Below, in pieces: positions 7,727-12,843 of a stretch of 64,000 bases of DNA. The stretch comes from Candidatus Saccharimonadota bacterium (lineage in GTDB: Bacteria > Patescibacteriota > Saccharimonadia > Saccharimonadales > UBA4665). Under the pieces are notes generated by a model, which was not told where the DNA came from, did not search any database, and saw nothing but the letters and a program-made list of their open reading frames with translations. The stretch lies in assembly GCA_003153395.1 (NCBI GenBank), contig PLYP01000005.1, forward strand, positions 85,701 through 149,700. Reading direction: 5' to 3'. Position numbers and translations under genes: made by a program. Every line of letters begins with the position of its first letter. Positions within the stretch are counted from its first letter, which is position 1.

Positions 7727-8551
7727 ATGCAATACGAATATTTTTCTTTAAATGGTCAACTACGTCCAATTGAAAACGCCAATATATCTATATTTAATTT
7801 AGAGTATTCATATGGTTTCGGCGTATATGAAACAATACGGGTGTCCAAGGGGACTATATATTTCTTAGACGATCATTGTTCCAGGCTTATTAATTCAGCT
7901 TCAGTAATTGGCTTAGACCATAATTTTGACCACGAGTTTATAAAGCAAAGTGTACATAAATTAATCGAGAAGAATGAGACTCAAACTACTAATATAAAAA
8001 TACTACTGATTGGTGGTGATACTAAGAATAGTGCAAGTATGTACATTACATGCCTAAATCCGCTTTTTCCGGATCGCAAAATTATTCATTCTGGTGCACA
8101 CGCAATTACAAAAAAATACGAACGTATATTTCCACAAGCTAAAACGTTAAATATGCTCCCAAGTTATCTAGCTTACAGGGAAGCAAAGGCTATGGGGGCA
8201 TTTGATGCGCTTTTTATAGATAATCAAGAAAATATAATGGAGGGATCACGAACTAATATTCTTGCACTTCGTGGCAACGATCTAGTTTCTCCCATAGAAA
8301 GCAAAATACTGCCAGGCGTCATGCGCAGTAAGGTAATTAAAGTGGCAAAAAGTAATGGTTATGAATATTCTGAAAGTAATATTCCACTTAAATCAATCGG
8401 GGAGTATGATGCACTGTTTTTAACAAGTGCAACTTCTAAAATTATTCCTCTTAAATCCTTAGATGACGTGCAGCTAAAAGGCTCCTGGGATAATTTAAAT
8501 AGACTTATGTCTCTGCTAAACGATTATCTAAAAGACTACTCTAAGACTTAG
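7727..8551 (+). CDS. Class IV (fold-type IV) PLP-dependent aminotransferase
   Basis: 274-residue member of the family that contains branched-chain aminotransferases, D-amino-acid aminotransferases and aminodeoxychorismate lyase. YGFGVYETIRV near residue 30, the probable PLP lysine in AKTLNML (K139), DALFIDNQENIMEGSRTNIL, and LTSATSKIIPL near the C-terminus are family landmarks. Sequence alone does not separate these activities. A D-Ala-forming enzyme would suit the nearby ddl/murF genes, and a branched-chain one would suit the threonine-deaminase-like gene 2 kb away. A GAGGAG sequence lies about 16 bases upstream of the ATG, farther than usual. Confidence 0.85.
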   Translation: MQYEYFSLNGQLRPIENANISIFNLEYSYGFGVYETIRVSKGTIYFLDDHCSRLINSASVIGLDHNFDHEFIKQSVHKLIEKNETQTTNIKILLIGGDTKNSASMYITCLNPLFPDRKIIHSGAHAITKKYERIFPQAKTLNMLPSYLAYREAKAMGAFDALFIDNQENIMEGSRTNILALRGNDLVSPIESKILPGVMRSKVIKVAKSNGYEYSESNIPLKSIGEYDALFLTSATSKIIPLKSLDDVQLKGSWDNLNRLMSLLNDYLKDYSKT

Positions 8552-8573: not shown

Positions 8574-9317
8574 TCAGAGCGGGCAGGCAGTCGTAGAAGT
8601 AGGCACACAATTACTGCCAGGAACAATTCCTCCGCTTGGAGTTTTGAGAAGCTGAGCATAGTAACTTGAAGAACCCATAAGGGTATAGGTGCTAGCGTTA
8701 AGTTTCGCGGCATATACTTGAAGGTACCTGCCTACATAATTAGTTCTAATGGAACCAAATCCTATAACCTGTCCCCACGGTTGAGGCTGATATATATTGC
8801 CGTGCATGAGATACACAGTACTGTTGCTTACCATAACATGACATCCTACGTCTCCAATCGGAGCCGTAGTAGTTGCGCATTCGTCTTGGGTTATTACGCC
8901 GGTGAATTTTACAGATGGATACGTAACAAGTTTAACGTAGTAACTCGAAGAGCCCTTAAGCGTATAACTAGTGGGGTTATTTTCTGCGGCATATACTTGA
9001 ACAGTTCTGCCTGTATAGTTTGTTTTTATACTACCAAAGCCAATTACCTGGCCCCATGGAGCATTTTGGGCAATGTTACCATGCGCTACTGATACTACTT
9101 TAGTGCCGACGGTAATATGGCAACCTACGTCTCCAATCGGAGCCGTAGTAGTTGCGCATTCGTCTTGGGTTATTACGCCCGAAAATTGTGCGCTATTAAG
9201 TGTTGCAGCATGGCTGCCAACTAAATACGCTACACCGGCTATCGCGAAGATTCCGACAAATAGCATTAATATGACATCATGAGTAAATCCCTTGGAATTT
9301 AGTTTCTGGAATTTCAT
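8574..9317 (-). CDS. Secreted surface protein with two tandem ~85-residue repeats
   Basis: 247-residue exported protein of unknown function. The N-terminus has a short basic region, then KGFTHDVILML and a hydrophobic stretch ending GSHAAT. This resembles a type IV prepilin-like leader, but the usual Glu at +5 is not present, so an ordinary Sec signal is equally possible. The rest is two near-copies of one domain, each starting with GVITQDECATTTAPIGDVGC and ending with SSSYY. A 56-bp perfect DNA repeat (8845-8900 and 9124-9179) shows a recent duplication or gene conversion. Two Cys per repeat could form a disulfide. A Cys-containing tail ends the protein. Confidence 0.75.
   Translation of the reverse strand: MKFQKLNSKGFTHDVILMLFVGIFAIAGVAYLVGSHAATLNSAQFSGVITQDECATTTAPIGDVGCHITVGTKVVSVAHGNIAQNAPWGQVIGFGSIKTNYTGRTVQVYAAENNPTSYTLKGSSSYYVKLVTYPSVKFTGVITQDECATTTAPIGDVGCHVMVSNSTVYLMHGNIYQPQPWGQVIGFGSIRTNYVGRYLQVYAAKLNASTYTLMGSSSYYAQLLKTPSGGIVPGSNCVPTSTTACPL
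8845..9179. repeat. Perfect 56-bp direct repeat inside the surface-protein gene
   Basis: The 56 bases at 8845-8900 recur unchanged at 9124-9179. They encode the start of each of the two protein repeats (ITQDECATTTAPIGDVGCH). The surrounding repeat sequence is diverged while this block is identical, which suggests local gene conversion or recombination. Confidence 0.93.
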
Positions 9318-11493: not shown

Positions 11494-11512
11494 AGTTTTT
11501 TCCGTAAATTAA

Positions 11513-11538
11513 AAATCCTCCGGTTTAGCGGAGGATTT
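11513..11538 (-). terminator. Attenuator terminator upstream of ilvA-like gene
   Basis: Minus-strand hairpin AAATCCTCCG / CGGAGGATTT with a 6-nt loop, followed by a U-rich tract (TTTTTAATTT in DNA). The stem is a perfect 10 bp. It lies about 20 bases upstream of the ilvA-like ATG, so it would stop transcription before the gene. The leader segment at 11577-11583 (CGGAGGA on the minus strand) is perfectly complementary to TCCTCCG of the 5' arm and can form the competing antiterminator. Confidence 0.8.
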
Positions 11539-11568
11539 AAGTCTTCTTTATAAATTAACTGCAAATAA

Positions 11569-11637
11569 CTAAATAGTCCTCCGTAAGGATCGCGGAATAA
11601 TAATTGCCGGAATTAAGTGACTATTCATGACTAACAT
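11569..11637 (-). CDS. Leader peptide of the ilvA-like gene (22 codons)
   Basis: Short ORF from ATG 11635-11637 (or the in-frame ATG at 11626-11628) to TAG at 11569-11571. It begins MLVMNS and contains HLIPAIIIP, with three consecutive ATT (Ile) codons and further Ile, Leu and Val. It ends beside the antiterminator segment, as in classic amino-acid attenuators such as ilvL. If ribosomes stall at the Ile codons, the CGGAGGA segment is free to pair with the terminator's 5' arm. If they reach the stop codon, they cover it and the terminator forms. The ATG lies just downstream of a predicted -10, so translation may be leaderless. Confidence 0.68.
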   Translation of the reverse strand: MLVMNSHLIPAIIIPRSLRRTI

Positions 11638-11645
11638 ACTATCAC

Positions 11646-11672
11646 ATTATATGAATTATTTAAGACAGTAAA
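11646..11672 (-). promoter_or_regulatory. Predicted promoter of the ilvA leader transcript
   Basis: Minus-strand -10 TATAAT (11646-11651) with a weaker -35 TTTACT (11667-11672) at 15-nt spacing. A start about 7 bases past the -10 falls almost at the leader-peptide ATG. Confidence 0.5.
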
Positions 11673-11694: not shown

Positions 11695-12843
11695 TCATTT
11701 TGTTTGTTTAGTTATGAGAAGACATCCCCAGGCGGAAGCTGCAGCAATAAGGAAAGCACTTACGAAAAATGCATGCGTGGAAGTAGTAAGCAAAACTATC
11801 AGTAATACGCTCCAGAGGCTAACATATGCCAAGTCACAAGCAATCTCCATACTCATAATGTATTGCAGTCCCCTCTTTTTTGCATGGTGGTAATACATGC
11901 TTGTCCAGGCATTCTGAAAGTAAGCTAGTGATGCTCTATAGCCTGAGCTAACCACTGCAATCCAAAACTGTGATGTTACAAATATTCTAATTACGTCAAT
12001 AAGACTTGAGACAGCTACACCTTCTTTCAGGACGGTTCTATCTTGACCCTTATCACCCTTGTGTCCTGCTAGCCATGTCGCCAGAACTGTAGTGGTGGCA
12101 GCAATTGCTGTTATAACACCGATTGATTTATATGTTGCAATAAATATAGCTAGGTATATTGGCCACACCATAACCCCGACTACCGTTTCAATATTAAAGA
12201 AATAATTTGCAAGAATATCTCGCCCTGGAGCACCATGAAGGTTGTATGATATCTTCTGCTTATTAGGAGATTGTAAGTATGAGCCCATTTCCTTTAATGG
12301 AATAAGGGCTGCAATGCAAAGTAACATTGATAGAACTAATAAATAACCTGAGCCAAGATATTCACCTACCAAACCACCTATTAACGGAGCAGCAACACTT
12401 GCAAGTTGCCCGATGATTGCAATCGTAGCAATACTTGAGCTTTTAGTATCGTCTTGCATGGCTTCTGAAATAAATAAGTGCTGGGAGTTCCATAGGAATG
12501 CATAAGTCAAAGACATTGCTATGGCACCTATAACTAAAAATGTTAAGTGTTTCGTAGTTGAATAACCTAGAATACTTAATGTTTGCAAACCGCCGGCAAT
12601 AAATGCAACTCCTAGCCCAAAATGTGCACCCTTTTTTTGAATCAGTAAAACGGCAGGATAATTAAGTATTAATTTAACGACAGCATATGTTAGATAGAAA
12701 GCTGGTACTTCCCATAAATGTCCCCCACTTTTAAGAATAATTAATGGTATAAATACGCCGATAAGACCGGACGCAAAACTATAGATATTAAGTGCGATAG
12801 CAACACTTACAAGACTCTTTTGAAGACGCAGGGGACTACGCAT
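11695..12843 (-). CDS. MFS-type transporter
   Basis: 382-residue polytopic membrane protein with about 11-12 hydrophobic segments and a short basic cytoplasmic N-terminus (MRSPLRLQKS). The pattern of two six-helix halves joined by a hydrophilic loop (around residues 185-210) fits the major facilitator superfamily. AGHKGDKGQDR in the second half resembles the MFS inter-helix loop motif. The substrate is unknown. It is transcribed toward the ilvA leader, which has its own promoter. The gene start is divergent from the small plus-strand gene at 12936. Confidence 0.75.
   Translation of the reverse strand: MRSPLRLQKSLVSVAIALNIYSFASGLIGVFIPLIILKSGGHLWEVPAFYLTYAVVKLILNYPAVLLIQKKGAHFGLGVAFIAGGLQTLSILGYSTTKHLTFLVIGAIAMSLTYAFLWNSQHLFISEAMQDDTKSSSIATIAIIGQLASVAAPLIGGLVGEYLGSGYLLVLSMLLCIAALIPLKEMGSYLQSPNKQKISYNLHGAPGRDILANYFFNIETVVGVMVWPIYLAIFIATYKSIGVITAIAATTTVLATWLAGHKGDKGQDRTVLKEGVAVSSLIDVIRIFVTSQFWIAVVSSGYRASLAYFQNAWTSMYYHHAKKRGLQYIMSMEIACDLAYVSLWSVLLIVLLTTSTHAFFVSAFLIAAASAWGCLLITKQTK

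Follow-up and report, generated by a model that had tools for sequence, protein, structure and literature searches.

A predicted leaderless isoleucine attenuator ahead of an orphan threonine-deaminase-like gene in Patescibacteria

Introduction

The classical attenuators of branched-chain amino acid (BCAA) genes are the enterobacterial leaders of ilvGMEDA, ilvBN, and leuABCD. They place the sensor codons within a short leader ORF and have RNA arms that pair as 1:2, 2:3, and 3:4, and an intrinsic terminator with a U tract; the locus described here is alike in these features, its 1:2 stem being a candidate one. In the enterobacterial systems an untranslated leader carries a Shine-Dalgarno site and the genes controlled form pathway operons, whereas the Patescibacteria leader appears leaderless and stands before one gene in a pathway-less genome.

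Attenuation has been proposed for the ilvB leaders of actinobacteria, among them the ilvB-II and ilvB-OMG motifs, and reporter work was done in Corynebacterium (PMC1262725, PMC10272879). The leaders covered there are similar to ours in having a BCAA-rich uORF and then a terminator upstream of BCAA genes, but they precede ilvB operons with partner genes, whereas our leader precedes an orphan deaminase gene. Leaderless leader ORFs are also known. The RNA of the S. meliloti trpL attenuator leader ORF starts at its ATG (PMC7298713), mycobacterial polycysteine sORFs are leaderless according to work cited in PMC13236596, and no intrinsic terminator is evident at the mycobacterial cys leaders (PMC1262725). 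These leaders have a 5′ end at or beside the leader AUG, as is predicted for ours, and differ in the amino acids and lineages concerned. Searches of the open-licence literature turned up no amino-acid attenuators described for the Patescibacteria group. The kind of mechanism proposed here is known; what is new is the lineage, a design that looks leaderless throughout, and the putative control of orphan enzymes whose pathway is missing.

Architecture of the leader

The window, which is the whole 64-kb stretch of DNA that was analysed, had been proposed in a sequence-only reading to contain an isoleucine-type attenuator. Every part named in that proposal was found on the minus strand (Table 1): a promoter-like −10 box, a 22-codon leader ORF with an ATT run, a 7-bp antiterminator segment overlapping the end of this ORF, and a perfect 10-bp terminator with a U tract. 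The leader ORF has five Ile codons, all of them ATT, including one run of three. The antiterminator segment, CGGAGGA, is complementary to TCCTCCG of the terminator 5′ arm, and the terminator as a whole (11513-11538) lies between the leader ORF and the deaminase gene, 30 nt after the leader stop and 19 nt before the gene. No other Ile leader with a terminator was found on either strand of the window. The proposed protector hairpin needs correction, since a candidate stem does exist but the better one is AATAGTC/GACTATT, not TCCT/AGGA; this 7-bp stem links the start of the ORF with its end and is part of the MFE fold of the full RNA. As the −10 box ends 8 nt before the first ATG, the transcript is probably leaderless or nearly so, in agreement with the earlier proposal, and relatives share this promoter geometry.

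Table 1. Parts of the putative attenuator and the gene that follows it (window coordinates)
Feature	Position	Strand	Remark
−35-like TTTACT	11667..11672	−	weak, 4/6 vs TTGACA; spacer of 15 to −10
−10 box TATAAT	11646..11651	−	6/6 match; 8 nt ahead of first ATG of leader
Leader ORF MLVMNSHLIPAIIIPRSLRRTI (then stop)	11569..11637	−	22 codons; 19 codons if started at 11628
Sensor codons ATT ATT ATT	11596..11604	−	Ile9-11, numbered from second ATG
Arm 1 AATAGTC	11619..11625	−	candidate protector; partner 11572-11578 (GACTATT)
Arm 2 CGGAGGACTATT	11572..11583	−	antiterminator part 11577-11583; arm 1 partner 11572-11578
Arm 3, terminator 5′ arm AAATCCTCCG	11529..11538	−	TCCTCCG is the arm 2 partner
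Arm 4, terminator 3′ arm CGGAGGATTT	11513..11522	−	T tract follows
Putatively regulated gene, threonine-deaminase-like PLP enzyme, 336 aa	10483..11493	−	no ACT domain

At z −1.6, the region as a whole folds only slightly more stably than expected, so folding by itself is no proof of an attenuator. In shuffled sequences, an ORF with at least five Ile codons ending 15-45 nt ahead of the terminator appeared in 142 of 5000 cases (about 3%), and an ORF with III in the same placement in 32 of 5000 (about 0.6%). Taken singly, the window locus makes a moderate, suggestive case, and conservation in relatives is decisive. No Rfam leader family matched the window at the gathering threshold or 12 of the leader loci up to E 1, and a riboswitch or a known leader family was rejected for that reason.

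We folded the window RNA with a mask in place of the ribosome. When the RNA was made up to arm 3, a ribosome on the Ile codons gave about 8.5 pairs between arm 2 and arm 3, and a ribosome at the stop gave none. In the full-length RNA at equilibrium the terminator is favoured in every ribosome state once arm 4 is made, so that the switch would have to be kinetic, a property in common with known attenuators. With no ribosome present and arm 4 yet to be made, the model likewise prefers arm 2-arm 3 pairing, which suggests that the protector stem may be weak.

The deaminase-like enzyme and the missing pathway

The 336-aa product has PF00291 (PALP, 8e-63) as its sole Pfam match and is therefore ACT-less, as had been claimed. 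Its closest NCBIfam model is PRK08639 IlvA (2e-89), whose profile of 418 positions is matched over 21-321 only and whose equivalog cut-off is missed (300 bits vs 421); hence we call the enzyme threonine-deaminase-like. The best PDB match is a threonine deaminase, 3iau (2e-57). Catalytic-site motifs are present, with the K of HKIRGA, SAGNH, and SGGN, and the glycine loop is altered to PVGGMG. The product combines the PALP fold with catalytic-site motifs. About 2 kb from the deaminase gene, on the opposite strand, 7727-8551 (+) encodes a class IV aminotransferase resembling branched-chain and D-amino-acid aminotransferases. At 8574-9317 (−) lies the gene for a 247-aa protein that has no Pfam match; its N-terminal segment is hydrophobic, and it contains two near-identical repeats (FTGVITQDECATTTAPIGDVGCH...).

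That the genome might lack the isoleucine pathway was earlier a suspicion, and it is borne out by searches in which all 14 control genomes were positive: IlvC, IlvD, and an acetolactate-synthase-type (IlvB-type) TPP domain all went undetected in the window genome. IlvC was found in just 4 of the 393 genomes of the order and IlvD in none of the 18 tested, the window genome included, and the acetolactate-synthase-type TPP domain is present in 12 of 36 leader-bearing or related genomes. The absence of the pathway extends to most leader-bearing relatives. The lineage is probably Saccharibacteria, which a small genome and a large order of similar genomes would fit; the assembly contains no 16S gene, and a TM7 primer site was looked for and not found. 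For oral Saccharibacteria, an independent prediction puts the greatest deficiency at valine and isoleucine (PMC6609349). Relatives (L078, L080, L143, and L146) carry both acetolactate synthase and threonine deaminase, some together with RidA or isopropylmalate synthase, and IlvC was not found in their genomes.

Leaders in relatives

The search for deaminase homologues covered 93 genomes from the same family and 393 from the same order. The two closest (55-56% identity) have a predicted leaderless ORF encoding MSNSIIMSEMIMTPRRGCL and a stop, then a terminator, and then the gene, with a leader sequence different from that of the window; each also has its own extra terminator upstream that closes the previous gene. 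More distant deaminase-like genes are preceded by leaders encoding MKTSQMIITSIIIIPRGDAL, MCKQLMIESIIIIPPSGG, MANYRIIEGMIIIPAAG, MSTNQQIIISIIIPPSTRC, and MTQQGIISIIIMPPQARR, each ending in a stop. The arrangement is therefore not unique to the window genome and recurs across the order. In 20 curated relatives the common order is a promoter of leaderless type, an Ile-rich ORF, its stop, 19-36 nt, a terminator, and the gene, and the peptides differ; where the leader is directly upstream of a deaminase gene, the hairpin-to-gene distance is 16-74 nt. Four deaminase homologues (L004-L006 and L045) have no leader. Comparison with related genomes had been suggested as a check of the attenuator, and it did not refute the proposal: despite divergent sequences, the arrangement is kept at both nearest homologues and at about 20 further ones in the order.

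Pairing between the arms exceeds the controls. With related sequences counted as independent in these family-wide p values, arm 2-arm 3 pairing is stronger than with dinucleotide-shuffled arm 2 (Fisher 4e-13) and than with partners swapped between species (Wilcoxon p=2e-4), and arm 1-arm 2 pairing gives 6e-5 against shuffles and p=0.009 against swapped partners. The arm 1-arm 2 stem is missing in several members, and arm 2-arm 3 pairing is not above the controls in several relatives (L054, L058, L061, and L063). Conserved Ile-rich ORFs and pairing beyond controls support the interpretation of the locus as isoleucine attenuation.

A −35/−10 promoter (score of at least 9/12) ending 4-10 nt before the leader start was found at 14 of 31 leaders, against 0.6 expected, and by this geometry the leaders look leaderless. 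The spacing from −10 to start codon is 5-9 nt in most relatives with this type of leader (class A), and TTGACA stands at the equivalent −35 place in many of them. The choice of Ile codons is also biased. ATA is rare in the leaders, with 7 of 131 Ile codons versus 273 of 877 in the downstream genes (p=6e-12), and ATT or ATC makes up 124 of 131 versus 604 of 877. The avoidance of ATA points to the tRNA-Ile that reads ATT and ATC.

Proposed mechanism and alternatives

By far the best reading of the locus, and in our judgement a very probable one, is ribosome-mediated transcription attenuation with charged tRNA-Ile as the signal, here in a leaderless variant controlling an orphan enzyme in Patescibacteria. 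Transcription would start at or just ahead of the leader AUG. An ample supply of Ile-tRNA would let the ribosome reach the stop and cover arm 2, arms 3 and 4 would form the terminator, and the deaminase gene would be off. When Ile-tRNA is scarce, the ribosome would stall on the ATT run, in the loop between arms 1 and 2, leaving arm 2 available to arm 3 while arm 4 has yet to be made; no terminator would then form, and the deaminase gene would be transcribed.

The hairpin could in principle do no more than terminate transcription of the upstream MFS gene (11695-12843), with the short ORF being a chance frame in an AT-rich spacer. Three points speak for such a reading: the hairpin lies on the strand of the MFS gene and downstream of it, the single-locus z-score is modest, and shuffles yield Ile-rich ORFs at some frequency. 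However, a promoter and a conserved ORF intervene between the MFS gene and the hairpin, and at five relatives (L002, L003, L061, L063, and L064) the preceding gene has its own terminator, after which come the promoter, the leader, and a second terminator. Together with the conservation between species and the co-variation of the arms, this led us to reject a simple terminator, which we regard as most improbable. A conserved ORF might still act through its peptide, either by arresting the ribosome as a nascent chain or by sensing ribosome-targeting drugs, instead of sensing tRNA-Ile. Arrest leaders employ the same RNA logic, and Ile-Ile-Ile-Pro-like segments are common to several of our leaders. 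Apart from their Ile content, though, the peptides differ nearly everywhere, the synonymous codon ATA is avoided although a mechanism based on peptide sequence does not need this, and the sensor residues become Leu or Val according to the downstream gene. Peptide arrest or drug sensing is accordingly a very unlikely explanation, and sensing of charged tRNA-Ile is preferred over it.

The role of the enzyme is a separate matter. The attenuator may be real and the enzyme an evolutionary remnant, in which the isoleucine pathway was lost while its first step survived, still regulated but with no matching function; this is compatible with tRNA-Ile attenuation as the switch. The rarity of IlvC in the order and the lack of IlvC, IlvD, and AHAS in the window genome fit a remnant. 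On the other hand, many pathway-less genera carry the leader and an intact enzyme although the sequences have diverged, a pattern that speaks for continued selection, and we consider a remnant possible but doubtful. Since relatives keep an attenuator-controlled IlvA, or IlvB and IlvA, without IlvC, the orphan deaminase might instead serve a split or unrecognised isoleucine route during isoleucine starvation, and a shared pathway would then be under the control of the organism's own tRNA-Ile charging. Either 2-oxobutyrate would be handed to a host or partner cell, or non-homologous enzymes would replace IlvC and IlvD. We regard such a route, in either form, as unlikely.

If tRNA-Ile attenuation is real, these tiny, probably host-dependent bacteria would actively monitor their BCAA supply through leaderless leader peptides, and the supply signal would be wired to single orphan enzymes. 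This makes a testable puzzle of why an apparent isoleucine auxotroph would regulate threonine deaminase by isoleucine. The leaders would also supply candidate starvation-responsive promoters and flag small uncharacterised genes putatively under the same control.

Wider distribution and a second leader class

A model was built from 18 leaders and run over the 393 genomes of the order. RNAalifold returned no consensus pair for the class A alignment, and the model is consequently sequence-only. It gave 43 matches at E <1e-5, about 25 of them outside the building set, and exactly one in the window genome (E 4e-12). Independent matches lie ahead of biosynthetic acetolactate synthase genes (L094, L098/L143, L099, L105, and L130), isopropylmalate synthase (L144), and deaminase-like genes (L111 and L127), and some matches precede small genes of no known function. 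Beyond the order, 240 genomes of the phylum gave 8 more matches, of which, judged by eye, L147, L149, and L151 are BCAA-leader-like, L148 is Leu-rich, and the others are chance-like. The genome-contig search with the deaminase itself returned distant actinobacterial and Chloroflexi deaminases only. Leader-like Val- or Ile-rich ORFs with terminators were also seen at L112, L115, L118, L119, L128, L129, L116, L120, and L124; ORFs of this type precede small genes of no known function or lie upstream of the ribosomal protein L10 gene.

A second leader class, found in 65 of the 393 genomes, has an Ile/Leu/Val run followed by the conserved peptide end GLCFSMVEA (L014, L015, L016, L017, L066, L080, and L155-L184). 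Its conserved RNA consists of GGGCTGTGCTTC...GTTGAAGCC and then GCACAGCCC and a GGCTTC/GAAGCC terminator. The sensor residue tracks the downstream gene: Leu goes with isopropylmalate synthase, Ile or Val with acetolactate synthase, and Ile with deaminase. No Rfam leader family was found at the leader loci tested. The window's genome contains, outside the window, a second attenuator-like leader, one of the GLCFxMVEA class (L185, G000:C1:14000-21000; leader at G000:C1:18703-18864, minus strand), which is Leu-rich, encodes MMVESLQSKLNLLLGLRGLCFAMVEAGRVKRI and a stop, and precedes a gene for a 122-aa protein that has no Pfam match.
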